Source: Cristatella mucedo
Taxonomy: Eukaryota > Bryozoa > Phylactolaemata > Cristatellidae
DNA length: 64,000 nt
Reading direction: 5' to 3'
NCBI GenBank assembly: GCA_009760855.2
Contig: WPIO01000041.1
Span: forward strand, 621,001-685,000
In this document: positions 3,156 to 63,027 of the stretch, in pieces
Layout of the letters: every line of letters starts with the position of its first letter
Position numbering within the stretch: position 1 is the first letter of the stretch
Notes under the pieces: generated by a model
What the model was told of the DNA's origin: nothing
The model's database searches: none
The model's input: the letters and a program-made list of their open reading frames with translations, nothing else
Made by a program: the position numbers and the translations under genes

Positions 3156-3159
3156 TAAA

Positions 3160-4512: not shown

Positions 4513-4690
<178 letters not shown>

Positions 4691-11858: not shown

Positions 11859-14800
11859 GTGCGTGCCCCCCCCTCCCTCTCTCAACCACCCCCTCCTTAA
11901 TGCTTTGCAGTAGGCACAGCTCACAGCTGTACCTAGCTAGCTCACAAAGGTGAGCCCGAGCCACTGGAGAGAGAAAAAGGGTCGGTAGCGCTGTTGTTAT
12001 GATAAAGAGCTCTCTTCGAATTCTGTTTACTCGGGCTTTTCTTCGTCGCTTGTGGCAGTCGCGATGGCCAGGGTGATGCAGCACCCTTGGACCGACCGTG
12101 AGTTGCCAGCCGAAATCGAAGTCATGTCCCCCTCCTTCCCCCCACTGCTGTCCTCCTCTCCCCCCCCCTACTGAGCTCTCATGGAAAACTCAAGTTGCCT
12201 ATTGCAGAGCTCCCTCGGTTGTTTGCTCGCTTTCGAGTTGTTCGCTTTTCTCTGACGTCAAAGCTGCAGAGGCTCCAGAGGCAGCTGAGCTTTCGAGCGC
12301 TCACCGAAGTAGCTTCCCGCTGTGCTTCGGAGCCACGCCCATGTCACACCACCCCTCCCACCGTGCGGCCCGGTGCTGCTCTACTTGCACTACACGGTCG
12401 GGACCGATCGCTCGTCTGGCTGCCGGGTCGTATCGTATCCCGTAGGACCCTAGGCACACCTGTCCTTGGCGCTCGGGCGAGTGTCCAATCGGATGGCGAT
12501 GCCTAAGTCGATGCAGGCTAGTTTCGTCGACTTTGCACAGAGTAGTGAGTTTCCCTACGAAGCTAGGACTCTGCCACTCCCAGGAGCCTGGAGGTGGAGG
12601 AGGAGGAAGGAGGTTGTTTTTCTATGCTCCTTCCTCCTCCTCCCCCGGCCCCGCCCCTCCTCCTACCCCGGCCCCGCCCCTCCTCCTACCCCGCCCCCGG
12701 CCCTCCTCCTACCCCCCCCCCCGCCCCCGGCCCTCCTCCTACCCCGCCCCCGGCCCTCCTCCTACCCCGCCCCCGCCCCCGGCAGCTAGCTGTAGAGGCT
12801 GCCGGGGGTGGGGCAAGCTGCTGCTGGCGTGCTCATTTGAGCTCCGTGGGCGTGGCAGCGTGGATGCATCTATCGAGGGCTCGGCGCTCCGAATCTCCCG
12901 GTGATCGGAGCAGAGCTGCTGCTGACGGCGCTTTCAGCACCCGCTTTCAGCCGCCTCTGCAACCTTGCGCTCGTTGTTAGGGTGCAGTTCTCGATGGCAT
13001 AACCGGCGTTGAAACACCGACAGTGGTTGCCACGGCAGCTGTAGCCACCGATGTGTCGCCCAGAACCAAGGAGCCCGGCACGGCTCGCAGGTAGGCCTCC
13101 TATACGGAACAGGCTCTAATACCCTGCTGCTGCTGCCGCTGCTGCTGCTGGCTCCTCGTGAACTCTGCTGTCCTGTAAGCTGCAGCTGCAAGGAGCTGCT
13201 GCTCCTAGAGCAGGCTTCTCCTGTTTCTGTCTGCCTCGTGCTCGTGTCCTCAAAAAATGTGAATACTTTTCCACATTGTTTCTTGTTTGCATCTTGCACT
13301 CCCTTGCATTAGTAGCTATCTCTTGAACTGACAGCATTTCAATGGACGCTATCAATGCCACACGTCTTTTGCTCTGTCCTTTGTGAGTCTCCATGATGTA
13401 TATATGCATGCTTGTATTGTATTGTATGCTGACACTGTATGTATTGTCACTAATCAATTGACACGTTATCACAGTGTAAGTGGCCGGAAAGAGATTTTGT
13501 TCTCATAAGGACGTTATGCAAATGTTGTTTTTTTTACCTCTTTATCCCTTTCACCCCCTGACTTAATGGCATTTGAAAAAAGCTAAAAAGTTATTTATCA
13601 CAGCATATGTTGGGTCCATGTGATGACTCGTCCTTTGTGTGCTTATGCCTGCTAAGCCGAGCTGGTTTGGTCCAGCGGTGAAGGTGTTCGCCCCGACCAA
13701 GGTCAGGCTGAGTTCGTGGGCTCGAGCCCCCGAGGCATATGCCAAGCGCCTGAATAGAGATTGAGTTCTCTTCTGGTGCTATGCAAATGAATTTCATTTA
13801 TTTAATTATTTATTCGCATGCTGACCCTTTGCATGTCATCTCTAATCATGCTATGCTTGTTGACATTGAGCATGCTACCTTTAGCCATTCGATCATGCTT
13901 CCTTTACAGCATATGTATAGTGCCAGGAGGAGATTAAGTTCTGTGAGGATTATATACCAATGTATTGTTATTGTTATCAATAATATTATCATTATAGCTC
14001 TTTACATTCATAGTTTCACCGACGAAGAACTGATGAGCATCTGTGGTGGTCGAACTGCACACAAGTAAGTGTTGGCCGTTTTTACAGTATGGAAGTGGCC
14101 GGTCGACCTGTTTGTTTATTCATTATATTAGTTAAGTTTATAATATGTATATTTTAGGTTATTTATAGTATAGAGTATATATATATATAATAGTTCATTA
14201 CATTATTCAAGTTATGCTCAAAACATGCCGGTCGGTGTGTTTAATTGCATTTTTATTTGGTGCTGGCATTCGAGTTTGCACATGAATATGTAAGCGACTT
14301 CTAGTGCCTATTGGTTGTATTCCACTGATTCGTGCGAAAAACAATGGGGGGGGGGCTGAAGTGCCGACCATTTGGCAAGAACGCTTCGATGGAGGTTACT
14401 CGGAATGCGCACAGAAATCGTTTTTCAAAGCTCAATGCCATCGTGTCATGTCATCATGTCAATCTCAATGTCGACGGTGCGATAGCTGAGAGCTGCCGTC
14501 GGCTTGCTCTATGCTGGCAAGAGTGGCAGCAGCAACGAATGTGAGGCTGCGTTCGAGTTGGGACGCCGGCGGGCTCACTGCTCCCGCTTCATAAACCTCC
14601 GACGCTCAGGCCGGCCCGTGAGCCGGCTCCGGCTGAGTGTCCGGCCAGGCAGGGAGAGAGGGGGCGAGGTGCAACCAGCAGCGCGTGCCAGGGCTGCTGC
14701 TGCTGCTGCGCGATCGCTTCTGTCGCTTGCCGCCCGCTCTGCTGCTGCTGCTGCCACCTCCGCCGCGGTCTCCTTCTGCTCCTCCAGGGCGGCGCGGCAC

Positions 14801-15277
14801 GGCTTTAAGCTGGACGGCAAGTTGCAGCGCATCGAGGAGCAGGAGCGGCTGCAGCGACAGCGCTCCGCAGCCGAAGCAGCGGACGCGGAGCAAGCGGCTG
14901 CAGCGGACGCGGAGCAAGCGGCTGCTCGCCAGAAGAAAAGGAAGCGGCTGGACGCTGCAGCTTTGCAATCCAGCGAAGACGGCGGCGGCGCCGCCGCGTG
15001 CTCAGCGTCGGGCGTCCTGGACGCCGACTCGGGGCGGCAGGCTCCGGCGAACTACGAGGGGAAGAGCCGGAAAAAGCGGGGCGGACGCTCGACCGAGCCT
15101 CGTTCCGATTCTGCCGCCTGCGCTGGTGCGCCTGCGTCTCTACGTGAGAGCCCTGCTGTGGCAGGAGAGCTTGGCGAAGGGAAGAGAGAGAAAAAGAAGA
15201 AGACGAAAAAATTGAAAAGAGAAGAAAGGAAGGCGACGAAGAAGAAGAGCGTTCGGGGCGAGAGCGACTCGTCGTAG
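11608..15277 (+). CDS. GPATCH4: GPATCH4 orthologue (G-patch domain-containing protein 4), four exons found, first exon missing
   Basis: Nucleolar G-patch protein. In mammals GPATCH4 binds and stimulates the DEAH helicase DHX15 and affects 2'-O-methylation of rRNA and U6 snRNA (family knowledge). I see exons 11608-11858, 12981-13090, 14014-14064 and 14788-15277. Together they give 902 nt (300 codons with the stop), open throughout. Phases match at every junction: 0/0, 2/2, 2/2. Diagnostic blocks in order are KGLGKDENG (G-patch core), the tract EFTDSWWNRVFDKAASNLVVE split around residues 28-48, FTDEELMSICGGRTAHK, then AARHGFKLDGKLQRIEEQE, then a long Lys/Arg-rich tail. This order and the length match the animal GPATCH4 layout. 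The first exon, which should encode the start Met and the N-terminal end of the G-patch up to the Trp before KGLG, was not located in the repeat-rich DNA upstream. No clear AATAAA follows the stop at 15275-15277. Confidence 0.92.
12630..12783. repeat. C-rich minisatellite in a GPATCH4 intron
   Basis: About 23-bp units of the type CCGGCCCCGCCCCTCCTCCTAC, six to seven variants, no G-poor strand break. The minus strand has many G3+ runs. Confidence 0.9.
12981..13090 (+). CDS. GPATCH4: GPATCH4 internal exon, low-complexity linker
   Basis: This exon was inferred because the flanking exons need a phase-0-in, phase-2-out piece. The sequence between TTGTTAG (ends 12980) and GCAG/GTAGGC (donor at 13091) is open for 110 nt in exactly that phase. 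It encodes a Thr/Val/Ala-rich linker of 36 residues plus two bases; the added T from the next exon makes a Ser. Linkers at this place are poorly conserved in the family, so the support comes from phase and splice sites, not from similarity. Confidence 0.65.
13560..13990 (+). mobile_element. LINE family A 3' end inside a GPATCH4 intron, interrupted by a SINE
   Basis: The LINE 3' end (GTGTGCTTATGCCTGCT) breaks at 13653 and resumes at about 13815 (GCATGCTGACCCTTTGCATG). It ends in the tail GTGCCAGGAGGAGATTAAGT and an ATTGTTATTGTTATC run close to the acceptor of the 51-nt GPATCH4 exon. Confidence 0.8.
13655..13812 (+). mobile_element. tRNA-derived SINE, full length, nested in a LINE
   Basis: Head GCCGAGCTGGTTTGGTCCAG, B-box GGCTCGAGCCC, then the shared tail AAGCGCCTGAATAGAGATTG with TTTATTTAATT at the end. 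It lies in the GPATCH4 intron before exon 14014-14064. Confidence 0.88.
14014..14064 (+). CDS. GPATCH4: GPATCH4 51-nt exon with the FTDEEL...GGRTAHK motif
   Basis: The acceptor TTCATAG ends at 14013 and the donor ACACAA/GTAAGT starts at 14065. The exon encodes FTDEELMSICGGRTAHK (the last Lys codon is completed by the next exon). This matches the LTDEMLLQACEGRTAHK motif I recall from vertebrate GPATCH4. It enters and leaves in phase 2. The exon sits directly after a LINE 3' end (to about 13990) that carries a nested SINE, so mobile DNA lies within about 30 bp of the acceptor. Confidence 0.9.
14788..15277 (+). CDS. GPATCH4: GPATCH4 terminal exon, charged tail with nucleolar-type basic runs
   Basis: The acceptor follows a strong pyrimidine tract (CTCCTTCTGCTCCTCCAG, ending 14787). 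The exon starts with G to complete the Lys codon of TAHK, then encodes AARHGFKLDGKLQRIEEQER. Next come an Ala/Glu/Gln repeat-like segment (two copies of ADAEQAA), a basic run QKKRKR and a C-terminal Lys cluster (KREKKKKTKKLKREERK), ending SDSS and TAG at 15275-15277. Basic clusters like these act as nuclear/nucleolar targeting signals in the family. GC content is high and several CTG/GAG runs look expandable. Confidence 0.92.
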
Positions 15278-26404: not shown

Positions 26405-27935
26405 TTATAATGATAATAATGCACTTGAAAAAGCGCCCTCAGAGAACTTAATCTCTTTCTAGGCGCTTTACATTTGCTGCAAAGGGAAATGCAATTGAAT
26501 GGTGAGTAAAATCATGCTTGACAAACAAACAAAATTAATAACATGGTTAGGGGTGACATGCACAGGGTCAGCATGCAAATGTGGTTAGTGGCAGCATGCA
26601 CAGTGTCAGCACGCATAAGCACATCAAGGACGAATCACAGGGACCCACTAAATGCAGTCATAAATAGGTGTGCTTTTAAATTCTTTTAAAATGTGGTCAG
26701 GTCAGGGGATTTTCTGACGCAGGTTGGGAGAAAGTTCCGGGCTTTGGGAGCATGCGAACTAAATGCACGGTCTCCAAAGGATTTAAGGTTTGTATGAGGT
26801 ATTGGTAGACTGTTGGATTCCAAAATACGGGTGGTACGATGCTTGGCCTGATGGGGTAGTATATCTGAAAGATAGGCTGGAGCCATAGAATGAAGGGACC
26901 TAACAGTGAGTGACAAAACTTTGAAGTCAATCCGTGGCTTGACTGGTAGCCAGTGCAGGTCGGCGAGAAGTGGAGTAATCTAGCAACTGCGACGCTCACG
27001 ACAGACAAGCCTAGCTGCAGAGTTTTGCACCAGCTGCAAACGCCTGATGGAACATTCCGGTAGGCCAGCGAGCAGTGAGTTGCAGAAGTCGAGACGGAAT
27101 GTCACGAATGCGTGGACTAATTTGGACGTAGTATCCTTATTTAAACAAGCCCGAATTTTAGCAATGTTGTGAAGCTGAAAATAGGCAGATTTGACTGTGG
27201 AGCTGATATGGTCGTCTAACGAGAGGTCGCTTTGGAATATGAAACCTAGATTTCGAGCTGATTCAACTGTAGCTATGCTGGCAGAGCCGATTTTGAGCGT
27301 CAGCCTTTCCAATTTGTGAATCAGACTGGGTTTTCCGATAACTAGTAAGTTCGTTTTATCGTCATTTAGTTTTAGAAAATTTGCTGCCATCCATATGCGG
27401 ATGTTATCAATACATGCAGCTAGTGAGTTGAGAGAATTCGAGGTGCTCGAAGGCTGGGAGGGATCAAAGTAAAGGTACAACTGAGTGTCATCTGCATAGA
27501 AGTGAAAGCCTAGGTTGTGCTTGGCAATCACATCAGCAAGAGGGAGAGTATAAACAGTTAAAAGAACCGGACCTAGCACGGAGCCCTGAGGTACGCCATA
27601 TTTCAGATGTACCTCAGATGATCTGTGTCCATTCATGTCAATACTCTTGAGTCTCCCACTGAGATAGGACCTGAACCACTGCAGAGCAGTGTTAGTGATG
27701 CCCAGGCGAGATGAGAGGCGCTCTAGAAGAACTTTGTGATCGATGGTATCAAAAGCTGCCGAAAGATCGAGCTAAACAAGCAGAGACACTCTACCCATGT
27801 CTGCATTCCTAAGTAGGTCGTTGTATACCCTAAGCAATACTGACTCTGTGGAGTGATTAGCTCTAAAGCCAGACTGGAACTTACTAGCAAGGTGTGAGAT
27901 GGATGTCCCCATATATGCAGCCAATGCATGGATTT
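26405..27935 (-). mobile_element. LINE family A copy with readable reverse transcriptase
   Basis: Minus strand from the (ATT)n tail at 26405 to the RT fingers at 27930. The RT domain is open over 26980-27636 with YGVPQGSVLGPVLLTVYTLP and the catalytic FYADDTQLYLYFDPSQPS, then ARNLGFIFQSDLSLDDHI and [21 protein letters not shown] stop precedes LDLSAAFDTIDH near 27773, and a frameshift lies near 27000. It is 5' truncated: no endonuclease domain is present. Confidence 0.88.
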
Positions 27936-31535: not shown

Positions 31536-32875
31536 GCTAGTAAGTTCCAGTCTGGCTTTAGAGCTAATCACTCCACAGATTCAGCATTGCTTTGGGTGTA
31601 CTACGACCTATTTAGGTAGGCAGACATGGGCAGAGTATTTCTTGATCTTTCGGCAGCTTTTGATACTATCGATCACAAAGTTCTTCTAGAGTGCCTCTCA
31701 TCTCGCCTGGGCATCAGTGGCACTGCACTTTAATGGTTTAAGTCCTAACTCAGTGGGAGACTCCGGAGTATTGACGTGAATGGACAAAGATCATTCGAAG
31801 TACCTCTGAAATATGGGGTACCTCAGGGCTCCGTGCTAGGTCCGGTTCTTTTCACGGTTTATACTCTCCCTCTTGCCGACGTGGTTTCCAAGCACAATCC
31901 AGGCTTTCACTTCTATCCGGATGACACTCAGTTGTACCTTTGCTTTGATCCCTCCCAGCCCTCTAGCACGTCAAATTCTCTCAACTCCCGTGCTACATGT
32001 ATTGATGACATCCGCACATGGATGGCAGAAGATTTTCTTAAATTAAATCATCATAATACTAACTTACTAGTTATGGCAAAAGCAAGTGTGATTCAGACAT
32101 TGGAAAGGCTTACACTCAAAATCGGCTCTGCCAGCATATCTCCCGTTGAATCTGCACGAAATCTAGGTGTCATGGTCTAAAGTGACCTTTCGTTAGCCGA
32201 CCACATCAGCCCCACAATCAAGACTGCCTACTTTCAGCTACATAACATTGCTAAAATTCGGGCTTGCCTAGATAAGGATAGCACTTCTCAATTGGTCCAT
32301 GCATTTGTGACATCCCATCTTGGCTTCAGTAACTCACTGCTTGCTGGCCTACCGGCATGTGCAATCAAGCGCTTACAGCCGGTTCAAAACTCTGCAGCTA
32401 GACTTCTGTTGTGAGCTTCGCAGTTGCCCCATCAACCACATCTCGCCGACCTGCACTGGCTACCAGTCAAGCAAGGCATCGACTTTAAGGTTTTGTCACT
32501 CACTTTTAGGTTCTTCAATTCGTTGGCTCCAACCTACCCATCAGATCTACTACCTCACCAGGCCAAGCATCGTACCATCCGCATTTTGGAATCTAACTGT
32601 TAACCTATACCTCGTACAAACCTCAAATCCTTTGGAGACCGTGCATTTAATTCGTATGCTCCCAAAGCCTGGAACTCTCTCCCGACTTGCGTCAGAACAT
32701 TCCCTGACTTGACAACTTTTAAAATGAACTTGAAAACACACCTAGTTATGATAGCATTTAGTGGGTCCCTGTGATTTATTCTTTATGTGCTTATGCGTGC
32801 TGACACTGGTGCATGCTGCCACTAATGACACTTGCACGCTGACCCTGTGTATATCACCTCTAACCACGTTCCTCA
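31536..32875 (+). mobile_element. LINE family A copy, reverse transcriptase pseudogene
   Basis: RT reads from FQSGFRANHSTDSALL through LDLSAAFDTIDHKVLLE, YGVPQGSVLGPVLFTVYTLP and the active site to the C-terminal blocks and 3' UTR. Inactivating changes are seen: TAA for the Gln of ALQWF near 31730, FYPDDTQ instead of FYADDTQ at the catalytic loop near 31914-31934, and TAA in LGVM(V)*SD near 32177. The 3' tail hairpin is absent. Confidence 0.88.
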
Positions 32876-33169: not shown

Positions 33170-33560
33170 TCTCTCTGTCTCCCTTTCTCCCTCTCTCTCT
33201 GTCTCTCTCTGTCTCTCTGTCTCTCTGTCTCTCTGTCTCTCTGTCTCTCTGTCTCTCTGTCTCTCTGTCTCTCTCTCTGTCTCTCCCTCTCTCTGTCTTT
33301 TTCTGTCTCTCTGTCTTTCTGTCTCTCTGTCTCTTTCTCTCTTTCTCTCTCTGTCTCTTTCTGTCTCTCTCTCTCTCTCTCTCTCTCTGTGTCTCTCTCT
33401 GTCTCTCTTCTCTCTCTCTCTCTCTCTCTGTCTCTCTGCCTCTCCTTCTCTCTGTCTCTCCGTCTCTCCCTCTCTTCCTCTCTCTGTCTCTGCCTCTCTC
33501 TATCTTTTTCTGTCTCTCTGTCTTTCTGTCTCTCTGTCTCTTTCTCTCTTTCTCTCTCTG

Positions 33561-33615
<55 letters not shown>

Positions 33616-33640
33616 CTGTCTGTCTCTCTCTATCTCTCTC
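33170..33640. repeat. (CT)n satellite with CTGT variants, about 470 bp
   Basis: CTCTCTGT higher-order units; a block around 33250-33400 recurs around 33480-33560. The very long open frames here are artefacts of composition. Confidence 0.95.
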
Positions 33641-35407
33641 GTTTTCTTTATTCTTATTATTCTTCTTATTTATCCTCTTTCAAGAAAATCATATATCTAG
33701 AATTTTTAGCACTTCTGTACGGATTTATCAATTATACGCACCACGTGTAAACGTTGTTTCAATTTAAAAATGAAGCAATCAACTTTCGACAATAGAACGA
33801 GGGAGTTCGGCCTCGTGACCGTCAGGCTAATGTGAAAAAATAAATACAAAAAAATTCCGTCGCGGTACAAACCTACGAAGAATAATTTTGCATTACTCTA
33901 GGTATCATCAAGTGTGCGTCTATAGCCAAAGAGGTAGGAATTCCGAGTGAGGCAGTTGGTGCTTGTAAAAGTGCAGGAAGAAAAATGGCGAGTAGCATGC
34001 TGCCGCCGGTCCAGTGCGTTACTAGCTTGCCGTCTGAGAGTGGATGTACATGCACTAACTGCCCAACCCATATTGACAGGCCGCGGCGCAAGCCGTTGCC
34101 AACTAAATCACGACCTCTCTGGACAGAGTGCGAGCAGCTGTGCAATGCTTAAGATTCGCACTGGCTGCGTCGATAATGGATGCGCTGCGTACGCGAGCAG
34201 GGACTTCCGGGCCTAATGGCGCGTAAGAGCGGCCATTTAATCCGTCCCTACCGGAGCGCCGCGGCGTGACGACCGTCGGGTAATGGAGCAAGTCAGGTTT
34301 TCATTTGCACTGTTTCGAGTGTCGGTTTCCGCTAGCCTGCACGCACAAGCCAGCGCGCCGGTGCCTCAGCCGTGCCAGCCCTACCGGCCCTGCGGAGGCG
34401 ACAAATAAACCAGCTCCGTTCACCGGGAATGCGTGCTTTCCAGGCGACGTACGATGTCCAATGCGAGAGGGCGGCGGCGAGGTAGCAGGCGGATCACATT
34501 TCGTGAGCTTCCGCGGCGTAGCGGCTCTCGCTTGCTTAGGAAAGCCGGGTGGGGGCGCGGGCATCACTTTTATCTAATTATTTAGCTCTGGAGCACAGCT
34601 CAGCGCGTCCAAAAGCTCCTCCAGACCTCGCGAAATCCCTGGAGAAAATCGAAATCAAAAAGGTCTAGAAAATTACAAAGCTGCGCGCTAGACTGTAACA
34701 TACGATATTAGCAGCCGATTTAAAAAAAGGCCGAACTCCATACAAAGATGGCGGCGTCCTCCTCCACCTTCCCTGCTAGGAGGCGATGTCGTCGTCGGAG
34801 TTTGAACTCGCAACCTCTGAAAGTGAATGAAAGAGTCACTCCCTCATTTTGACCTTAGAAATTAGTCTAGAATTGCGTGCCTAATGGCTGCTAGACCGCA
34901 GCATCCTCTTCGGAACGCTAGACGCACCCGTAGCACACGGCAGCAAACGCGCGGGAGGGGACCAACTAACGTACGCATCTATTTGCGACGAAGTCGTCTT
35001 CCGCCATCGCTGCCGTCGCGTTAGTAACGGGTGCAGATGAACAGTAGCGTGCGGCGTTCCCCTTCGTACTTGAGTGGCAATCTTGAGCTGGCAGGGCTAC
35101 TCTTAGAAACATATTCTACACGCCACCATGACGAGAGGTTTAATGTCGTCGCCCTCTGAAGACAGCTCGTGCGCCTCAGAAAGCTTGAGAAACTTGACAG
35201 CTGTTCTTCCTAGATTATTCATTTGGCTAGCTTCAAATTGTATAAGACTTTGAAAAGCGTTTGACGAGTATTTTACAATTACGATTGGCAGACTATAGAA
35301 ATGACTATCCCGGGTCCTTGAACTTGACGTCGATGTTTTTCGTGAATTCGCTACGATTCGACGCTAGTAACTTAAGCTTTTTCATATCTCATCTATCGTC
35401 GGACGAA

Positions 35408-35495
35408 GACTGTTCAATTGATTCATATTATATAATATATAATATAGAAAGAAGACTGTTCAATTGATTCATATTATATAATATATAATATAGAT
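35408..35495. repeat. 43-bp direct repeat, two copies
   Basis: GAAGACTGTTCAATTGATTC followed by an AT-rich part ending ATATAATATAG, twice in tandem; perfect or nearly so by eye. Confidence 0.85.
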
Positions 35496-40276: not shown

Positions 40277-40490
40277 ATGTGCGACACTCCCGGCGGCTAC
40301 TCTGGCAGGCCCGTCGCCATCTTCAGTCTGATGCTGCTGACGCTGCAGCTGCTACTGACCGCTGCTCTTGCTGCTCGACTGCCTCTGCCGTCTGCTCACG
40401 GCGCGAGCGGCGGCGGCGGCGGCTACCGCTACGCCGCACTGAAGCGTTTGCTCAGCGAGCTGTCAGCTCAAAAGCGCATGCTGCCGCCAG
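40277..40490 (+). CDS. prohormone-4-like coding exon 1, signal peptide and pro-region
   Basis: The start is ATG 40277 (MCDTPGGYSGRP before the hydrophobic core). A second in-frame ATG at 40331 would give a shorter signal peptide beginning MLLTLQLLL; neither has a strong Kozak context. The donor CCAG/GTAAGA is at 40491. After the likely cleavage (LTAALA/ARLP) comes a Gly-rich stretch and YRYAALKRLLSELSAQKR, giving two Lys-Arg processing sites and a candidate peptide between them. The exon ends in phase 1. Confidence 0.85.
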
Positions 40491-41968
40491 GTAAGATGCC
40501 CCCAACCAGCTGCCGCCGCTCCGCGGATACTTCAGCCGTGGCTGCTGCGGGGGTCAGGCGTCCGGGGGGGGCGGGTTGTCGAGGCTCGCGTGGGAGCGTC
40601 GCAGCGCCTGCAGCTGCCGCCGCCTGCGGGCGGCGATGCGCGACGCCTTCTGAGCAACAGTTTGTACTGGCGCCGAATGTTTAAGTTGGGTAGAGCTGAA
40701 CTTTTGTATTCTGAATTCCGGGCATTGCGTCAGTGAATTAGAAATGGCCGGCGGCTTTTTAATCGCAGCTCGATCGTTGGAGCTTCCTTCTTTGCTCTTC
40801 GGGCTGATATTTGAAGCCTGCGGCGAGTAAATGCCGATTACGCTGCGCTCTCAAAATAGCTTCGGCCGTCGCTGGCTTGTCACGCGACTTCGCATGCTAA
40901 CGAGTCGTGCGACGTCGCTCGCGGCGCGCCGTCGCCAGTGAGAGTCTGCCGATCCGTCGCTTAAATCTTTAACGCGTTTTTAATGATTAACGTGGTCAAA
41001 GCCCATCGCTACTATTGTCAGTACTGCCAGTTCCGCCTATTCACCCGCGCACGTCTTGCACACGTAGCCTGGCGCTCGCCGTCGCGTTTGATAATGTAAC
41101 CATTGAGGCGAAATCGTGACCGAGTGATTCTACGAGTAAAGGAGCTGCAGAGAGTGACAGGATGAGAGCGAGCTAGAGAAAGAGGTAAAAAGAGAGAGAG
41201 AGAGAGAGAGAGGAGAGATAAACTAATCAAGCTAGTAATGAATGCAGGGCTGAAATTTGATGCACAGTGCAAATATAGAGAAACTGCGGCCGCGACTGCG
41301 GAGGGTCGTAAAGTAAAGAGCAGCATTGAGTAGAGAGACGTGGCATTGAGCAAGGGCAAGGCCGAATCGCGGACTGGACACAGTATCGAGTAGTGTACAC
41401 AATGAGCGACAACGGCAGCTGCGAAAGCTGCGAAACGCCACCAGCGTGATTTGCATGATTTGGGAGTTCGTGTCTGTCGTTGCCCGATGCTGCTAACAGA
41501 TTAAATCTGGCGAAGGAGACTTCGCAAGGAGACGCCGAATGCATTTACTCGTCTCGTATCTTTCACACTGTCTCTCGTTTCTCTCTTACTCACTCTGCAC
41601 TCCTTCCATCGTCTCTCTCCTCTCCCAATAAATCTCTTTGTTCTCATACTCGTGCGCACGCTCATTCTCACACGCAAGCACACACGCATGCTAGCACTCA
41701 CACACCTACGCTCCCACACCTACGCTCCTGCACTTACGCACCCACACTTACACACCCACACCTATGCACACACACCTACGCACACACACCTATGCACCCA
41801 CAACCACACACTCATGCAGCCATCCGCCCATAACCACAGTCTCTCTTACCCAGCTCACACATTAGCATTCACATGCCTGACACAGTCTGACGCCCGAGAA
41901 CTCACGCACATGGGCACAGCCATACACACACGCCACGTTCATCCGTCTCCTTGCAAGCTAATTGAATG

Positions 41969-42000
<32 letters not shown>

Positions 42001-44513
42001 CACACACGCACACACACACACATGCACTAACACACACACACACACACACGTAACCGAGTAAAACACATTAAAAAAACATGTAGTATGAGTGTACGTCCAC
42101 CATGTCTCTCTCTCTCTCTCGTCTTCACGAGCCGACGACGGCTTGACGCCGCGCTATAAAGGCTGAAAGAGCGCGAGCGGTTGTGGCAATTCAAGCACTG
42201 ACTTCATGCGACTGACGCGGAAACTCGGCCGCGTAGCTAAAGCTCGCGAAACGGCTCTCGCGACCGCCGCTGATCCGATCTCCGCTTGGCCCCCTACGGC
42301 GACGAGGCACCTGAGATATAATTCACCCTCGCTGCTTTGCGGCGGTCACGTGGCTGCCTCCCACGTCACACCGCTGAATACGGGCTCTGCAGTAGCGCTG
42401 ACGGACATTCGTCCTCACCACAGGCCGCCCGCGCCACCTCTTGCGCCGCCACCGCCGCCGCATCGCTGCCGGGGCACCGAGCGACTCGCGCCCTCGAAGC
42501 GCACCGACAAGCCTGGGCGTGCTGACGTCAGAGCAGCATCTGCCACCAGTGTCTGCAGTTCAGCTCTGATCAGTGTCTGATCGTTCTGGCCGGTGCAGCC
42601 ACTCGCGATTCCTCCGCCGCCGCCGCTCTCACCTCGGCAGCCGCGGCGGCCGCCGCCGCCGCCTCTGTGTTGACCGTCGGCAGCTGGCGAACGCTTTACA
42701 GAATTCAACAATTGCCAGCAAGAGGAGCCGTTTCCGTGCAAGTCAGTCAAGGAGTGCATATCGCTCAAGCTGCTCTGCGACGGCAAGAGTGACTGCAGCG
42801 ACGCCTGGGACGAGGACGACTCCGTGTGCACGGCCTGTGAGCGCCGGCAAACGCGCGCGTTCGCGGCGCGCGCGTTCGCCGGCGCTCTGCTCTCTGCTCG
42901 CCCGGCACCGCCTGAGCGCTGAAGCGCTGGGCGCGCTGCTGGTCCTAACCAAAGGCTGGCTAGAGGCGGCGGCGCTGCGGCGGGACTCTTGCGCGCGCCA
43001 TTCAAGCTCGCAGATGCATCGGCCTCATTTTTATAGAGTTTTACCCGTCAGGCTTCGTATTATAGCACCCGCTCTTTTAGCTCAAGTCGTTTGGCTGCTT
43101 ATTTAGCCCATCTCAAGCAGCCTTGGAGATCGCGACTTCAGTTAGTACATTTACACCAATCTAAAAGAAATTTGAGCCGATAGCAGATATTCTGATAGAG
43201 CTTCACTCAGATATTCTGTTTAGCTCGGCTCTCTACAGAGCAACGTTCTTATGCTGACCCATGAGGCCAAGGCCACGGCCTTTGGCTCCTTCGTACCCCG
43301 CTGAACGGCTCCACCTGTTTCAGCCTCATCGTGCCCTCTGTTCCTGTATGGACAACAAATTAACAATTCCACTCCTCCGATTAACGACCCTTGGCAGCAG
43401 AAGATTTCGCTCTGCATATAGACTAGACTGTGGTACTCGCTTCAGCAATTCTTTCGCAACGACAACTACTCTGCTTCTGCCCACTGTGGCACATTCTTTC
43501 CAGCCGTCTTAAATTGCTACTTCCACGCTACTCACAACCTCAGCTGCTCTCCTAACTCTGCTGCTCTCCTGACTCTGCTTGACCTTGATCCTCGAGCTGT
43601 GCTTCTTTCTCTTGGTTGCGTGAGACGAACAAATTTAGCCACCAAATCGGCAAAAATGGCCAAAATGGCACACAAATTGGCCACCGAATGCATACTGAAA
43701 GCCGCTTCAGCTGCGAGGAGTGCACTGCACCAACCTCTCTTGCGTACTGTGCACGTAGCCTTCGCGGCCTTGTGGAGCTACAGGCGGAGATGCATTGCAA
43801 TTAATACGTTAACGTACGTCGCGGCGATCGACAATAGCGATCTCTACCTACCCACTCATTCTGTCCCTTTCGCGGCCACATTCTTTCGCCATTATCTCCC
43901 TCTGGCTACTAACTTCCTCCTCTTCATTCTCGCTCTCCCTCTTCGTGGCAGTCACGTGGCGGCACTAGGAGTTTCACGCGGGAGGCAAGACACGCGAGGA
44001 GCACTGAAAAATTGAAGTGCATAATCGTAAGTCAGTCAGCCGCCATGACAAATCATAAATCATCGAGCGAATATTCGATGAGTATTTAGCGCGTGGAATT
44101 GAGATCTGATTTTCAGGTAGGGCCCCGTTTCGTATTTTGAGACTGATCGTGGTTATTTCGCTCCTCCCGATATGCGACACACAAGTGGCATCGTCGGCTC
44201 TCCCCGATTCCAATATCCGGCGTATGCCTAGGTCCCTGTCTTTCCCACCTGTACTGTGGGGGGAAATGGGTCATCTGCACTGACACATGTAGGTGAGCCG
44301 GCTCTAGCGGAATACTGCAACGATCGATAGCGTATTTCTTAGCTTAATATTGCAAGTCCATGTTTCCAACGTAGAACGCACTCGTCGACAGCGACAGAGG
44401 GCAGCGTTTCCATAGCACCAATCAAAGCGTATCGCTAAATAGGTGCTTGCACTTGAGATAGTAATAACAATAATAACAATAATGCACTTGATAAAGAGCA
44501 CCCTCAGAGAACT

Positions 44514-44564
<51 letters not shown>

Positions 44565-47500
44565 GGCGCTTTACGTTTGCTGCAAACGGAACGTCGGAAA
44601 CCAGTGGAGTGTGTCATTTTAATGTCATACTAATGCATCGCGATCAGTCGACCACGAGTCCTCGCCCGATTGACTGGGAGCCGAGACCCGAGCCGAGACC
44701 TCTCTCGAACAAGTACTCAAGTCCGCATTGAATCTAGTTCAGCAATATTGCCAAAGACTCGTAATAAAGCAAAAAAGTAAAAGTGAACGTCAAGGCTGAT
44801 TCTGAGGCCTCTTTAATTAGCCGGAAGAAGGGCCATGGCGGCTCTCACTCCAACTCATTGTGAACAATTAAAGTCTGAGCACCTCAGCCTCAGGTCGAGA
44901 CCAGGGGGCAAAAAGGTGTGGCTGATTTAACTGTCCGACTACAGTGGCAAAAGATTCTTTACAACTTCACCACCACTCGACAGATAATAATAATAATATA
45001 ATAATAATAATATTGCACTTGATAAAGCGCCCTCAGAGAACTTAATCTCTTTCTAGGCGCTTTACATTTGCTATAGGCTGGCTCACTGCACGAATAATTA
45101 GTTAATCATTAATTAGTTTATTAATCATTACAGTTAGCAGGAAACTCGTCATCAATATCAATGCTAACATCTTCCTACTCTCGTGCAGCATTGTCAATGC
45201 CTGACTCGTTATTTTCACTGTATGCAGTGACGGACACTGACTTGCAGAGTTTAAGACGTAGGTCTATTTCTTTCAAAAGAATTGAAAAAAGTGCGACTTG
45301 TGCTCGTACAAATACGGTAACAACAAGTTATAGAAAAGCCACAAGCGATCGATTCACCCTGACCCGGATACCATTTAAGGAGCAGCCGTGGCCGTGGGCT
45401 GAAGGCTTGGGCCAAACTTGCAGGCGATCCGTTCGCTCTTTACGAGCGTTCCAGGTGGCGCTCTAATTCGGCGTGGGCGAGCATTGACATGCTCCCTCCT
45501 AGTGGAGCTAGTAATGAGCGCTTCTGACTGCTTTCTGCTGCCTGGCTCTGCTCTCCTGTCATTCACGATAGATTACGATATTTACGACACGATTACGATA
45601 GATTACGATACGATAGAAACGCCAAAGTTTTGGTTGTGCAGTCTCTTCGGAGGATGGAGCGACTTGCAGACGCTCGCAGCAGCGAAGGTGAAGCAGCGAA
45701 GGTGAAGGTGAAGCAGCGAAGGTGAAGGTGAAGCGTGAAAGTGAAGGTGCAGTTCGCAGTGCGCTCTGCGAAGCAGCGAAGGTGAAGGTGAAAAACTCGG
45801 TGAAGCCGACAGGACAGGAGCCGATCGAGCTGGGCGACAGAGCGTGCGTCGAAACCGCAATTCGTGAGAGTTCTCAGAGCGCCGACTGCGAGGGACGACG
45901 CGCCGCGCACCCTCCAGCGGGCGGGCAGGCGCACGCGTCCTCGTCCTCGCGGATAAACGAGGATCGAATCGGAGCCCGACGCCTCGCCCCGCCCCCTCCC
46001 CCGGTGACGCAGGCGCGCGCGAGCGAGCAGGCACGGTGCGCCCGCTCTGCGGGCGAGCAGTGCGGGCAGTGCGGGCCTGTCTTTTCGTCCATCCGCCCGT
46101 CGGGCCTCCGTCGGAGCAAAAGTGCGGCTAATGAGGGGTGGCGGCCATTTTGGAGTGCTCTCCTCCGGCGACGAGTCGCGGTTGTACTAATCACTCCTCC
46201 GATTGCTTGCTCGCTCGCGCACAGTGGCTGGAGGGCAAGGCCTACGAGCGACTCACTCTGATTGTATCCCCAGCAGACGACCGATCATTTCCTCGACCGC
46301 TTCCTTCCTCTGCTAGTCATTGCGTTGGATCCTTGTCTAACGTTAGGGACTGACCACTGCTACGGCTTGCTGGAAATCTAGCTGGCTCCCCGGTTCTTTC
46401 AAGACTGAAACGCTGCGCGATTCCGTTTTGGACGGCCTGACTAAAAAAGCCTTTCAGTGTCTGCAGCTGGTGACGAATGTGGCCGTATGGTTGGTCAACA
46501 AAACGCAGAAGTTCAGCCAAGGCTGCTAGAGCGACCATAGATTCATGAGCGATCAACGGTTACTACAGCTCAAAGTTCTTACTCAGATCTAGAAGGCACG
46601 GCTCTATGGCACCTAGCTTAACGCTACACTAGTTTAAGCGTCCTCGTACTCTCAGGTCCCCAATGGACTATCAACTAGTCGCTCCGTTCCTTCAAAACCA
46701 AACTTAGCTGATTTAACAGCCTCATTTTTATACCGGCAGAAATACCTTTACTACCTATCACCACCTTATCGGCTTTCACACTTGCAGTGGATAATAAAAA
46801 TTTACATAACCAGTTCAGATATCAAAGCTACCTTGCACTAGAAGACCGCGTCAGCTCCAACGGTAAAGTCAAGTCTGCTAACTTTCAGCCGCACAGCATT
46901 GCTAAAATTCCGACTTTTGTAGACTTTTGGATACCGCATCGACATTAGCCCATGCATTTGTAGCATCCCGTCTTTGCTTCTGTAACTCACTACTTGCAGG
47001 TCTATAAGCTTGTGCAATCAATCGGACGCTGACAGCTGGTGCTAAACTCTGCAGCTGGGCATGCCTGTGGCGAGCGCCGCGGTTGCAACGTAGGAAATAA
47101 ATAAAAATGAGCTGATTTAGCAGCCTAGTTCGTATAGCGGCCCGAAGAGCCTCGTCGGCTGTCACCAACGCTCGCAGTTGTCAATCAAGACTGGCCCATT
47201 GCAGCCATTCGCTCTTGACGACGACCTCTTACGGTCGTCGTCAAGAGCGAATGGCCCCGTACCCCGCTGGGCAATCGCAGCGCAGTAAAGATCGCAGGCG
47301 ACGGAGGCTTTTGTTCTCTGTAGATCATAGACTTCCAAGCTCACTTCCACAATACTTACAGAGCGCCGCGTTCTCTCTCCTAGCGCTCGCTGCCTCGCGG
47401 CGAATCTCCCGACGCGCCCGCGGCCTGGCCGTCGTGCGATTACCGCCGGCGGCGCCTACCCAACTCTTGCTTCCGCTTCCGGTCGCCGCCGCCGCAGCCT

Positions 47501-47857
47501 GCTCTCGACGCGCGGCGGTCGGCCGCTCTCTTTATCAGACCAGCGCCTGCCCGTGACGGACTTCGAGGAGCTGCTGGCGAGCGAAGCCCGGTGGATGGTG
47601 CCGGCGTTCTTCGCCGGCGTCGTCAGCAGCGCCGACGACCTGAGGAGGCTCGCCCACTTGCTCGTCGTCAGCCGCACGGCCGACGAGTTCGTCGAGCGAG
47701 CGCAGACCGCCGGCGACAGCGCCAAGAACCTGGTCGGCGCGCTGCTCGCCGTGCGCAACTCCGAGCCCGAGGCTCTGCTGCAGCTCGGCATGCCGGCCGC
47801 GTCGTGGGACAACGTCAAGTACGCCTTCGGCAGTCTGCTCGCCTCCGGCTTCCTGTA

Positions 47858-47858
<1 letters not shown>
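40277..47858 (+). CDS. prohormone-4-like neuropeptide precursor with one LDLa domain, three coding exons
   Basis: Secreted neuropeptide precursor of the insect prohormone-4 (idlsrf-like) type; the receptor and function of the family are little known. Exons 40277-40490, 42702-42836 and 47539-47858 join in phase 1 at both introns (2211 and 4702 nt) and give 669 nt, 222 residues plus TAG. Residues 1-32 are a signal peptide with core VAIFSLMLLTLQLLLTAALA. Residues about 33-71 form a short pro-region with two KR sites. Residues about 75-114 form an LDL-receptor class A domain with six Cys and the acidic DC.D..DED calcium site. The remaining about 106 residues (TDFEELLASEARWMVPAFF to SWDNVKYAFGSLLASGFL) are the conserved C-terminal domain of the family. 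Cys-Lys-Ser-Val plus ECI at the domain start, and VCTA at its end, are diagnostic for prohormone-4 as I know it. The IDLSRF peptide itself is not visible. Confidence 0.88.
41640..42052. repeat. (CA)n-rich satellite in prohormone-4 intron 1
   Basis: Imperfect CAC/ACACCTACGC-type units, then a purer CA run from 41968. Confidence 0.9.
42155..42161 (+). promoter_or_regulatory. possible second TATA box inside prohormone-4 intron 1
   Basis: TATAAAG in a CpG-rich segment 547 bp before the LDLa exon. It could drive an alternative transcript, but no signal-peptide ORF follows; the ATG at 42206 opens an unrelated Pro/Ala-rich frame. Confidence 0.2.
42702..42836 (+). CDS. prohormone-4-like coding exon 2, LDL-receptor class A domain
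   Basis: The acceptor CTTTACAG ends at 42701 and the donor CCT/GTGAGC is at 42837. The exon encodes EFNNC, then PFPCKSVKECISLKLLCDG, then KSDCSDAWDEDDSVCTA. That gives six cysteines in LDLa order, with Asp/Glu at the calcium-binding positions (DG, D in SDC.D, DED). The exon enters and leaves in phase 1, so it is a symmetric module. The CpG-rich intron end before it contains CCG/CGG runs. Confidence 0.9.
43235..43830 (+). mobile_element. LINE family B 3' fragment in prohormone-4 intron 2
   Basis: Matches the C-terminal ORF and 3' end of the copy at 56.5-57.9 kb, read in the plus direction: CACCTGTTTCAGCCTCATCG, TGGACAACAAATTAACAATT, CGAATGCATACTGAAAGCCG, ending GAGCTACAGGCGGAGATGCA. Decayed. 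Confidence 0.72.
44461..44600 (-). mobile_element. LINE A tail with an internal (CT)n expansion
   Basis: AATAACAATAATGCACTTGA, then AGCACCCTCAGAGAACTCAA, then a (CT)n run at 44517-44563 in the place of the normal TCTCTTTC, then TAGGCGCTTTACGTTTGCTG. It lies in prohormone-4 intron 2. Confidence 0.82.
44985..45078 (-). mobile_element. LINE A tail-only insertion, minus strand
   Basis: ATAATAATAATATAATAATA, then TTGCACTTGATAAAGCGCCC, then CAGAGAACTTAATCTCTTTC and TAGGCGCTTTACATTTGCTA; near consensus, with no body. Confidence 0.78.
45665..45795. repeat. minisatellite, GAAGGTGAAG units, in prohormone-4 intron 2
   Basis: GCAGCGAAGGTGAAGGTGAA units, four to five copies with one spacer at 45745-45775. 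Confidence 0.88.
46855..47100 (+). mobile_element. LINE family A internal fragment
   Basis: GTCAAGTCTGCTAACTTTCA, then GCACAGCATTGCTAAAATTC and CATGCATTTGTAGCATCCCG match the RT thumb region of other copies; both ends are truncated. In prohormone-4 intron 2. Confidence 0.65.
47539..47858 (+). CDS. prohormone-4-like terminal exon, conserved C-terminal domain
   Basis: The acceptor CTTTATCAG ends at 47538; AC completes a Tyr codon with the T of the previous exon. Translation starts YQRLPVTDFEELLASEARW, continues with a helical region (DDLRRLAHLLVVSRTADEF) and ends with ALLQLGMPAASWDNVKYAFG and ASGFL, TAG at 47856-47858. In insect prohormone-4 the part after the LDLa domain also ends in a GI/M...DVKFFFEKL..(S/T)GFL-like block, as I recall. 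The exon is extremely GC-rich, and a (CGG)n run begins right after the stop. Confidence 0.88.
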
Positions 47859-48880: not shown

Positions 48881-49129
<249 letters not shown>

Positions 49130-53097: not shown

Positions 53098-54535
53098 AAT
53101 AATTATAATGCACTTGTTAAAGCGCCCTCAGAGAACTTAATGTCTCTCTAAGCGCTTTACATTTGCTGCAAAGTGAAATGCAATTGAATGGTAGGTAAAA
53201 TCATGCTTGAAAAACGAGCAAAATGAATGATATGGTTAGGGGTGACATGCACAGGGTCAGCATGAAAATTTGGTTACTGGCAGCATGCACAGTGTCAGCA
53301 TGCATAAGCACATCAAGGACTAATCACAGGGACCCACTAAATGCTGTCCTAAATAGGTGGTTTTTAAGTTCCTTTTAAATGTGGTCAGGTCGGGGGGATG
53401 TTCTGACGCCGGTCGGAAGGAAGTCCCAGGCTTTGGGAGCATACGAACTAAATGCACGGTCTCCAAAGGATTTGCGGTTTGTACGAGGTATTGGTAGACT
53501 GTTGGATTCCGAAAAGTGGGTGGTACGATGCTTGGCCTGGTGGGGTAGTATATCTGAGAGATAGGCTGGAGCCATAGAATGAAGGGACCTAAAAGTGAGC
53601 GACAAAACCTTGAAGTCAATCCGTTTCTTGACTGGTAGCCAGTGCAGGTCGGCGAGAAGTGGTGTGATGTGGCAACTGCGACGCTGACGACAGACAAGTC
53701 TAGCTGCAGAGTTTTGCACCAGCTGCAATCGCCTGATCGCTGACATGCTGGTAGGCCAGTAAGCAGTGAGTTGCAGAAGTCGAGACGGGATGTCACGAAT
53801 GCGTGGACTAATTTGGACGTGGTATCCTTATCTAAACAAGCCCGAATTTTAGCAATGTTATGAAGCTGAAAATAGGCAGATTTGACTGTGGAGCTGGTAT
53901 GGTCGTCTAACGAGAGGTCGCTTTGGAATATCAAACCTAGATTTCGAGCTGATTCAACAGGAGATATGCTGGCAGAGCCAATTTTGAGCGTCAGCCTTTC
54001 CAATTTGTGAATCACACTGGGTTTGCCCATAACTAGTAAGTTAGTTTTATCATCGTTTAGTTTAAGAAAATTTTCTGCCATCCATGTGTGGATGTCATCA
54101 ATGCATGCAGCAAGTGAGTTGAGAGAATTCGAGGTGCTCGAAGGCTGGGAGGGATCAAAGCAAAGGTACGACTGATTGTCATCCGCAAAGAAGTGAAAGC
54201 CTAGATTGTGCTTGGCAATCACATCAGCAAGAGGGAGAGTATAAACCGTGAAAAGAACCGGACCTGGCACTGAGCCCTGAGGTACTCCATATTTCAGAGG
54301 TACTTCAGATGATCTTTGTCCATTCACGTCAATACTCTGGAGTCTCCCACTGAGATAGGACCTGAACCACTGCAGAGCAGTGTTAGTGATGCCCAGGCGA
54401 GATGAGAGGTGCTCTAGAAGAACTTTGTGATCAAAGGTATCAAAAGCTGCCAAAAGATCGAGCAAAACAAACAGAGACACTCTACCCATGTCTGCATTCC
54501 TAAGTAGGTCGTTGTATACCCTAAGCAATGCTGAC
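53098..54535 (-). mobile_element. LINE family A copy, long reverse transcriptase frame
   Basis: Minus strand from the tail at 53098 (AATAATTATAATGCACTTGT) to the RT start at 54530 (MLRVYNDLLRNADMGRVSLF). One frame stays open for 402 codons (53320-54528) with LDLLAAFDTFDHKVLLEHL, YGVPQGSVPGPVLFTVYTLP and the catalytic FFADDNQSYLCF. A frameshift near 53745 puts the native C-terminus ([16 protein letters not shown]) in another frame. No endonuclease part; a 5'-truncated copy. Confidence 0.88.
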
Positions 54536-55250
54536 TCATATGCACAGGGTTAGCATGCAAATGCGGTTATTGGCAGCATGCATAGTGTCAGCGCGCATAA
54601 GCACATGAAGGATGAATCACAGGGACCCACTAAACGCTATCCTAACTAGGTGTGTTTTCAAGTTCATTTTAAAATTGGTCAAGTCAGGGGATGTTCTGAC
54701 GCAAGTCGGGAGGAAGTTCCAGGCTTTGGGAGCATACGAATTAAATGCACGGTCTTCAAAGGATTTGAGGTTTGTACGAGGTATTTGTAGACTGTTGGAT
54801 TCCGAAGAGCGGGTGGTACGATACTTGGCCTGTTGGGGGAGTAGACCTAAGAGATAGGCTGGAGCCAAAGAATGAAGTGACCTAAAAGTCAGCGACAAGA
54901 CCTTGAAGTCGATTCGTTGCTTGACTGGTAGCCACTGCAGGTTGGCGAGAAGTGGTGTGATATTACAATGCGACGCTCACGACAGAAAGCTGAGCTGGAG
55001 AGTTTTGCACCAGCTGCAATCGCCTGATTGCACATGCCGGTAGGCCAGTGAGCAATGAGTTGCAGAAGTCGAGACGGGATGTCACGCATGGACCAACTTG
55101 GACGTGGTATTCTTATCTAAACAAGCCCGAATTTTTGTATTTTTGTGCAGCTGAAATAGGCAGAGTTGACTGTGGAGCTGATGTGGTCGTCTAAAGAGAT
55201 GTCACTTTGGAACATCGTTTACTTTTAGAAAATTTGCTGCCATCCATGTG
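54536..55250 (-). mobile_element. LINE family A copy, adjacent in the same orientation
   Basis: Begins in the UTR (ATGCACAGGGTTAGCATGCA) without its own tail and runs through the C-terminal ORF block (54617-54898; RSSESNSLQIPRTNLKSFED) to the region near 55220. Directly abuts the previous copy. Confidence 0.78.
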
Positions 55251-56514: not shown

Positions 56515-57880
56515 TGTATCTCCGTCAGTAACTCCACAAAGTCATAAAGACCATGTGGGTGTTACGCAGGAGAGTTTTGTATAGCGCACTCACAGCCAAA
56601 GCGGCTTTCGGTACGCATTCGGTAGCCAACAGACTTCGTCTCACGCAACAAAGAGAAAGTGGGAAGCATAGCAGAGTCAGGAGAGCAGTTGAGGTAGTGA
56701 GTAGCATAGAAGTAGCAGTTCAGGACCGCTGAAAAAGATGTGCCATAGTCGGCAGTTGGAGAGTTGATGTCGTTGCGTAAGAATTGTGGAAGCGAGTTCC
56801 ACAGTCTAGGACCTGCAGAGCTAAAGCTTCTGTCGCCAACTGTCTTTAAGCGGAGGAATGGGACAGCTAATTTATTGTCCACACAGGACCTGAGGGCGCG
56901 AACAGGCTGAAACTGATGCAGCAGTTCAGCTAGGTATGAAGGAGCCAAGCCGTGGCGGGCCTTGTGGGTCAGCGTAAGAACTTTGCTCTGTATCCTTTGC
57001 TCAACCTGCAACCATCCCAGCTCTTCCAGCAAAGGTGACACGTGCTCAAACCGCTGGGACTTGAAGACCAGCCCTGCAGCCATATTCATAGTCCGCTGTA
57101 GTGGCATAATAGCTTTCTTAGGTAGCCCAGCCAAAAGGGAATTACAATAATCAAGCCGAGACAGAACTAAAGAGCTAGTTAAATTTTTTACAAGCCACTG
57201 TGGGAGACAGCTCCTAATCTTGGATAGGGATCGGATGTGATGGCTAGCTGTAGAGGCAGTCTTCTGAATGAAGCTTTTTAATTTGAGGCAGCTGTCGAAC
57301 ACGACACCTAGATTACGAGCACGTGGTGAAGGTCGCACAATAGCATCACCTATTAGAACAGCAAAGCCTTTTAATCCTGCCACACGCTTAGGGTGTCCTA
57401 TGAGAAGCAGTTCAGTTTTATCGTCATTTAATTTCAGGAAGTTTTCCGACATCCAGGATCGAATATCGGCAAGGCAAGCATTCAGTTTCTCAGTTGCTGC
57501 AGCAGATTCCGACGGTTTAAATGACAAATACAACTGAGTATCGTCAGCATAGAAGTGATATCCTATTCCATGGGCCTTAATCACTTTTCCCAGAGGTTGC
57601 GTATAAATGGAGAACAGCAAGGGACCAAGTACAGACCCTTGAGGGATTCCACAGGTGACCCTTCTCATGTCTGAGACCTGACCCCCACACGACACGGATT
57701 GAACACGATCAGACAAGTAGGATTTAAACCACGCCAGTGCCTCGTCTGCCAGACCGATCGTTGTTCTCAGTCGTTCAAGCAGAACTTCGTGATCAATGGT
57801 GTCGAAGGCAGCGGACAGATCTAGCAGAGCTAAGGCAGTGACATTCCCGTCGTCGTATAATACTATCAATAGTGGTACAA
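56515..57880 (-). mobile_element. LINE family B copy with intact reverse transcriptase frame
   Basis: Minus-strand RT open from about 57870 to 56562 (about 435 codons) with no stop. Blocks: LLDLSAAFDTIDHEVLLERL, CGIPQGSVLGPLLFSIYTQP, catalytic YADDTQLYLSF, SENFLKLNDDKTELLLIG, ARNLGVVFDSCLKLKSF and LSRLDYCNSLLAGLPKKAI. The 3' end is GTTACTGACGGAGATACATA followed by (ATAC)n. It lacks the endonuclease (5' truncated at about 57875). By RT blocks it is CR1/L2-like; it is the least decayed RT in the window. Confidence 0.9.
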
Positions 57881-58004
57881 CGTTTTTATAGGATCCTGAA
57901 AGAACTAAAAATAACTCAATCCACTCGAGATGTACCGAGAATGAAGCATAACAACTGGCCCAATTTCTGTGTGCATTATGATGTAAATGTGATCTCATCC
58001 GGAT

Positions 58005-59000
58005 TATTCAAATTTCCCGAGGAACGCATAATTGTTTCAGCGTGTTTTTATGTCGTCAGGTCAAGAGACTTCGTGACGTCAATCGCTAGCCAGTTCCGGG
58101 CTTTAAGTGAAAATGAAAATGATGACCGGTCTCTGTATGCTTTGAGGTTGGACGAAAACACGGCTAAATATTTCGAGTCACGGGAGCGCTCGGAACTCTT
58201 CGCCGGCTCGTGACTTGTGCTTTTTACTAGGTTCAGGCCTGAGCAGAACAGGAATGAAGGGAGCAGGTATCGAGTGATATATATAGCTGCGAAGTCTACT
58301 TTATGGGAAGTCAGTGCAGGTTGGCTTGAAGTAGTATCGTATGGCAGCTGTGGCATTCACGGCAGGCAAGCCTGGCTGCCGAGTTGTGTACCACCAGTAA
58401 GCGATCTGCTAAAAAAAAGTTGAAAGGCCAGCAAGTGCTGGCGTCAAAAAATCCACGTCAGATTTCAGAAATGCATGGACCAGCTTGGCTCTGAGGTAGA
58501 CTTGCATAAGAAAGGGCAAATTTTTGCAACGCTAAGCACTTGTGAGTGAAGGTTCATTATGGGCATGGAAACCTCTGGATTGCTCAGAATTTGCAATAAA
58601 CATGTCGGGTGAGTCCATTTTGTGGGTTAGGCTTTCCAGTTTGTACGTGAGAAAATTTCAGCTGATCAAACAGCGTCAGTTGTGTAGCGGCAGAAACCCT
58701 TAGCGGCTAAAAAACCATTTGCAGAGGGCAATAAATGATTGCCTGCTACAGGGCTTAGAACCCCCAACTTGGGCGTGAACTTCGAGCACCTTAAGCCTGG
58801 ACTCAGATCCGATGGGGGCGTTTTCTTGGTATCGCTGGGATACCCTTAGCATCAAAATAGTTTTTTCGTCATTTAATTTAAGAAGTTTGCCTCAATCCAG
58901 GTGTGAATATCAGCATTAAGTGCTGCGAGGTAATTTAGAATTCTATGACTGAAATCGGTAGAGTATCGGCAGAGTACCAGTCAAGTAAAGACTACTGGCT
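58005..59000 (-). mobile_element. LINE family A-like remnant, strongly decayed
   Basis: C-terminal ORF block (58048-58356, with SLKARNWLAIDVTKSLDLTT), then thumb pieces, and near 58860 TTTTTCGTCATTTAATTTAA, the FLKLN/DDKT region, to about 58960. Confidence 0.6.

Positions 59001-62369: not shown

Positions 62370-63027
<658 letters not shown>

Follow-up and report, generated by a model that had tools for sequence, protein, structure and literature searches.

A predicted divergent prohormone-4 gene in the bryozoan Cristatella mucedo and the sequence relationship of its family to NRAP-1

The prohormone-4 family and its bryozoan member

Prohormone-4 has been recorded as a gene for a neuropeptide or prohormone in bees, oyster, ants, lobster, crayfish, cone snails, planarians, and a tapeworm, and here we compare this family with a gene predicted in the genome of the bryozoan Cristatella mucedo. 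The gene lies in a stretch of 64,000 nucleotides (contig WPIO01000041.1, positions 621,001 to 685,000 of the forward strand), referred to below as the window and numbered from its first letter. According to published accounts, the typical oyster precursor has the order signal peptide, short peptides, six-cysteine LDLa module, and long cysteine-free C-terminal part (PMC8398477), and Conus prohormone-4 likewise has the LDLa layout (PMC6891753). A mollusc survey assigns the family to the protostome stem (PMC6425005), a C-terminal fragment from lobster is reported to share 89% identity with an aphid protein (PMC4018349), and a product of 178 amino acids (aa) is predicted for the crayfish precursor after one cleavage at a Lys-Arg (KR) pair (PMC5141488). 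Detection by mass spectrometry is also reported, of IDLSRF-type peptides in ants and of two peptides in the oyster (PMC8398477). Three further papers only list the gene (PMC6250713, PMC11196405, PMC8935821), and a review from 2016 describes the molecular target of prohormone-4 as still to be determined (PMC5100318). The 'secreted peptide prohormone 4' of PMC4825013 is a different protein.

A genuine animal gene with three exons, belonging to the prohormone-4 family, very probably occupies positions 40277-47858 of the window. By profile comparison it is a divergent prohormone-4, a new member of a family that was already known. Like the prohormone-4 or IDLSRF-like precursors of arthropods and molluscs, its predicted product combines a signal peptide, a short KR-bounded pro-region, and one LDLa module with a long cysteine-free C-terminal domain ending in GF[LM]. 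An LDLa module in such a precursor was called unusual in a preliminary description of this DNA, a view that has to be dropped because the published typical organization in oyster and Conus contains one, and its presence in prohormone-4 is therefore expected rather than odd. The window product differs from its relatives in the pro-region, where the tentative counterpart of the IDLSRF core reads LKRL, with an extra internal KR, and in the exon 3 domain, which is approximately 31% identical, shorter near its start, and without the final D.

Gene structure and protein layout

Exon 1 (40277..40490, forward strand, as are all parts of the gene) contains the start codon, signal peptide, and short pro-region and ends in phase 1. 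Exon 2 (42702..42836) is a symmetric 1-1 exon of 135 nt with the single LDLa module, and exon 3 (47539..47858) encodes the cysteine-free and, as modelled, all-helical C-terminal domain (residues 118-222, 47541-47855), which ends in GFL and is followed by the TAG stop codon (47856-47858). The intervening introns 1 (40491..42701, 2211 nt) and 2 (42837..47538, 4702 nt) are both GT-AG introns in phase 1. Joined, the exons (214 + 135 + 320 nt = 669 nt) form an open frame of 222 codons closed by the stop, and no other in-frame ATG lies between the start codon at 40277 and an in-frame stop upstream at 40094. The preliminary description had joined the three exons in exactly this way, with phase 1 at both introns, and its model is reproduced here to the nucleotide.

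With a slash marking the exon boundary, the splice sites read CAG/GTAAGA (exon 1 donor), TTTACAG/ and /GTGAGC (exon 2 acceptor and donor), and TTTATCAG/ (exon 3 acceptor). Splicing of the three exons is predicted from sequence, and the sites were ranked with a simple consensus against the 536 GT dinucleotides and 689 acceptor candidates between 38 and 50 kb. Donor 1 (CAGGTAAGA) is the top-scoring GT of the region and acceptor 2 is good (35 of 689 sites equal or better), donor 2 has an intermediate rank (67 of 536), and acceptor 1 is weak (196 of 689).

The four parts of the protein that had been proposed earlier, namely signal peptide, dibasic pro-region, single LDLa, and C-terminal domain, can all be identified in the 222-residue product. 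Hydropathy predicts an N-terminal signal peptide (the 15 residues that start at residue 13 have the highest value, 2.45) with a hydrophobic core at about residues 14-33, and KR pairs occur at residues 56-57 and 66-67. Six of the seven cysteines lie within the LDLa (76-114; at residues 76, 84, 90, 97, 103, and 114) and none downstream of it. The Pfam LDLa model (PF00057) matches residues 75-110 with an expect value (E) of 2.2e-5 and 25 bits, just above the gathering score of 24.1, and the product thus has one LDLa with six cysteines, as in prohormone-4 and IDLSRF-like proteins. Residues 50-65 (YRYAALKRLLSELSAQ, 40424..40471), before the second KR, are a candidate N-terminal peptide and tentatively the counterpart of the IDLSRF peptide, with LKRLLSEL set against LSRLYGH. 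This alignment is weak and has little column support, and the alignment to the arthropod profile starts at residue 55; LKRLLSELSAQKR occupies the position of LSRLYGH...KR in the relatives, a correspondence that is equally tentative. A search of intron 1 for hidden cassettes resembling IDLSRF or the oyster peptide PYLLS, made with one narrow motif, phase 1-1 ends, and lengths of 30-400 nt, found none, and the sole LSLSRL match of the region falls inside a CT repeat at 42108.

Profile evidence for family membership

Two main sequence sets were used. The arthropod-type profile holds 120 proteins, the best 120 of 401 matches, with the window excluded; the 77 with an organism name are all arthropods, 43 have no such name, and mollusc, annelid, and flatworm sequences are not included. 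For most of the 77, a source gives the name prohormone-4 or IDLSRF-like peptide. The nematode-type profile holds 36 proteins, some of them unnamed, and its C-terminal version 34. All profiles were run against the 2021 stop-to-stop open reading frames (ORFs) of at least 20 aa in the window.

With the arthropod-type profile, the ORF of exon 2 comes first (E 1.9e-15) and that of exon 3 second (E 0.038), and the third-ranked ORF reaches only E 0.83. Exon 2 is also first with the nematode-type and combined profiles. For the spliced product the score is 72.9 bits (residues 55-222), compared to 53.6 bits when the exon 2 ORF is taken by itself. The alignment of the product spans both splice junctions and is gap-free at the second (window, CTA-Y-QRLPV; family, CTA-A-KRPPV). 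Because exons 2 and 3 rank at the top and the alignment runs through both junctions, we interpret the product as a divergent prohormone-4. The similarity is not confined to the LDLa module. With the LDLa removed, the arthropod C-terminal profile places exon 3 first of the 2021 ORFs (15.0 bits, E 0.0027), none of 5000 shuffled versions of exon 3 reaches the real score of 16.8 bits (best shuffle, 13.8), and the terminal GFL agrees with the end of the family, which is GFLD in 111 of the 120 arthropod-type proteins. This profile thus points to homology of the cysteine-free C-terminal part with that of prohormone-4. The comparison with insect prohormone-4 that had been suggested as part of a check, made here with the arthropod-type set, recovers C-terminal similarity in addition to the LDLa, and the similarity to named prohormone-4 proteins bears out the claim of a complete prohormone-4-type precursor.

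Other profiles gave weaker results. Exon 3 is still first with the combined C-terminal profile, at E 0.42 and 10.1 bits compared to 10.0 for the best shuffle, and among the top two with the combined full profile, at only E 0.084. The nematode-type profiles alone, full or C-terminal, did not list exon 3 among the 2021 ORFs, and 25 of 5000 shuffles equalled it with the C-terminal version, which is not significant. In alignments that omit the window insertions, mean identity to the arthropod-type proteins is 52.3% in the LDLa and 30.9% after it, and to the nematode-type proteins 50.3% and 21.9%, respectively. As a single sequence, the spliced product had no match at E 1e-3 in a large protein set (6508 candidates). 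Exon 3 alone matched nothing but a repeat protein at 0.17 among PDB sequences, and its single Pfam match, at 0.24, was below the family cut-off.

According to the oyster study, the PYLLS peptide is exclusive to lophotrochozoan precursors (PMC8398477). A similar motif, YLLYLL or YLLSLL, precedes the LDLa in 7 of the best 120 arthropod-type proteins (P0109, P0112, P0114, P0117, P0123, P0135, and P0157; five decapod, one mantis shrimp, and one unnamed).

Relationship to NRAP-1

The top PDB match of the window product is NRAP-1, an N-methyl-D-aspartate (NMDA) receptor auxiliary protein (8v14_A, E 7.8e-11, 45.4 bits), and the matched residues 75-130 cover the LDLa and sequence past it. The 8v14 chain is the C. 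elegans protein; NRAP-1 is reportedly released presynaptically and changes synaptic strength. The runner-up is a haemoglobin linker (26.9 bits). Annelid extracellular haemoglobin linkers and the LDL-receptor family share the LDLa module with the window product (E 3.6e-5 and weaker), and the match to these proteins covers the LDLa and its flanks. Past residue 132, neither a single sequence nor a two-row profile aligned the window product with NRAP-1.

Sequence comparison places NRAP-1 and prohormone-4 in one family: protein P0004 of the nematode-type set is identical to the 8v14 chain across 167 residues, the termite IDLSRF-like precursor P0051 matches that chain with its residues 40-202 (E 1.9e-42), and the arthropod and nematode-type C-terminal domains match each other with the LDLa excluded (probability 99.9, E 1.5e-34). 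When the NRAP-1 stretch was included in a profile search, 44 proteins were recovered; wherever an organism is named it is a nematode, and UniRef calls many of these proteins Prohormone-4. We did not meet the link in the openly searchable literature under those two names, and it may have been stated already, since UniRef puts nematode members under Prohormone-4.

Structural modelling points in the same direction. The model of the window C-terminal domain has a confidence score (pLDDT) of 86.9, and the only clear structural match of the exon 3 domain model is NRAP-1 (8v14), which supports, at the level of a model, a C-terminal fold shared with that protein; no useful match emerged when exon 3 was modelled from its single sequence. 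The two proteins differ in their C-terminal domains, for which the structural alignment gives an identity of only 16%, and in the window pro-region, which is longer and glycine-rich.

Conservation, isoforms, and the intron before the LDLa

Random pairs of arthropod-type proteins have a mean identity of 81.8% in the LDLa, 87.5% in the C-terminal domain, and 31.6% before the LDLa (signal peptide included), and the corresponding values for nematode-type pairs are 84.5%, 66.5%, and 33.4%. Isoforms were compared at the protein level in nine species represented by at least two of them in the arthropod-type set. The 156 residues from the LDLa to the end are identical among the isoforms of all nine. 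In eight species the isoforms diverge just past the KR preceding the LDLa, and in the ninth, Rhynchophorus, they differ at the protein start only. These alignments locate the strongest constraint in the LDLa plus the C-terminal domain, and as this part is both conserved and isoform-invariant, a short peptide in need of a mere carrier would not explain its constancy.

In the eight species (19 proteins), one of the residues G, A, V, and D, whose codons all start with G, stands at the break, as expected for a phase 1 break after G; residues with such codons (E included) account for 35% of the residues of those proteins. Exon 1 of the window likewise ends in phase 1 on G, and the distance to the first LDLa cysteine is 4 residues in the window and 3 or 4 in the five short isoforms measured. 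The isoform break and intron 1 thus occupy a matching place, apparently in phase 1 in both. Because eight arthropod species switch isoforms at this boundary, apparently in the same phase, the intron before the LDLa looks old and common to arthropods and the bryozoan. The phase 1-1 LDLa exon had earlier been likened to the classic exon-shuffling layout; the module does have its own phase 1-1 exon, but recent shuffling finds no support and was set aside, as the break before the LDLa is apparently common to arthropods.

Proposed function and alternative explanations

We favor, with a probability of roughly 0.6, the interpretation that prohormone-4, the term of the neuropeptide literature, and NRAP-1, the term used for nematode synapses, are two names for one protostome family whose active product is the LDLa-helical protein, a secreted modulator of NMDA receptors. 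The signal peptide would take the precursor into the secretory path, where it would probably be cut at the KR before the LDLa, yielding one or two short peptides together with a product some 155 residues long that consists of the LDLa module (probably calcium-binding) and the small helical domain. This LDLa-plus-helical protein would be the most likely active product and, by analogy with NRAP-1, may be secreted by neurons and act on NMDA-type glutamate receptors. For the window product, we infer secretion, cleavage, calcium binding, and receptor action. Since NRAP-1 belongs to the family, a secreted protein acting on NMDA-type glutamate receptors is the simplest account. Two points weigh against it: short peptides were found by mass spectrometry in ants and oyster, as cited above, and the window diverges in ETASFLxSLLASHGPNYLEKLFG, a stretch largely common to arthropod and nematode members.

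The earlier designation as a prohormone-4-type precursor holds, but the term 'neuropeptide precursor' probably tells less about the gene because the conserved part is the NRAP-1 protein. We see even odds that prohormone-4 has been misfiled and represents the NRAP-1 family of NMDA-receptor auxiliary proteins in arthropods, nematodes, and the bryozoan, the IDLSRF-type peptide being a variable, alternatively spliced pro-piece. If so, the behavioural links of bee prohormone-4 would run via glutamate synapses and not a peptide receptor, and a secreted NMDA-receptor auxiliary protein would be a protostome trait instead of a nematode oddity. NRAP-1 identity would also suggest a testable job for a gene of unclear function, with NMDA-type glutamate receptors as a defined target, the solved structure 8v14 as a basis for modelling, and a direct assay.

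The alternative that survives best, which we nevertheless consider unlikely, is a plain neuropeptide precursor, in which one or more short KR-cut peptides signal via another receptor while the LDLa and the helical domain only aid folding, sorting, or packaging. The two KR sites of the window product, the peptides detected in ants and oyster, and the isoforms of eight arthropod species, which vary before the LDLa and not after it, are all compatible with such a precursor. Yet the region that would supply the peptide is the least conserved of the three in arthropod-type pairs, the IDLSRF motif is hardly recognizable in the window, and the family includes a protein named as an auxiliary of NMDA receptors, with a deposited chain that keeps the KR and the residues preceding it.

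It is more doubtful still that the gene is a lineage-specific 'prohormone-4-like' paralogue with its own function, as in cone snails, the true prohormone-4 lying elsewhere in the genome. For Conus, a second class with a longer stretch before the LDLa and a different mature peptide has been described (PMC6891753), which is reminiscent of the long pre-LDLa stretch, missing clear IDLSRF motif, and strongly divergent exon 3 of the window gene, but the window shows no second copy, its best other ORF being the one at E 0.83 with the arthropod profile. A chance assembly of the LDLa exon of another gene with unrelated open frames is highly improbable: GC-rich DNA is rich in long open frames (89 of at least 120 aa in the window), neither donor 2 nor acceptor 1 is strong, and nematode-type profiles alone miss exon 3, but such an assembly would hardly produce the first rank of exon 3 with the arthropod C-terminal profile, unequalled by any shuffle, together with a gap-free junction 2 and the family-type GFL terminus.

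Other features of the window

Upstream of the prohormone-4 gene lies a G-patch domain exon (11325-11900, forward strand, Pfam E 3.5e-7). Downstream of this exon, a lysine-rich open frame that matches no Pfam family (14486-15277, forward strand) perhaps belongs to the same gene, presumably one of the GPATCH4 type. Five pieces of long interspersed nuclear element (LINE)-type retrotransposons with a reverse transcriptase domain are scattered over the window, four on the reverse strand (2812-3204, just below the Pfam cut-off; 26980-27771; 53320-54549; and 56562-58007) and one on the forward strand (31749-32180). Scans of the window with Rfam (gathering scores) and for tRNAs gave no matches. A perfect 46-base tandem unit is present in about two copies at 35405-35494, and long CT and TA simple repeats occupy 33170-33640, 62375-63025, 4516-4688, and 48924-49129. 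The two CT arrays among these repeats yield long low-complexity open frames.
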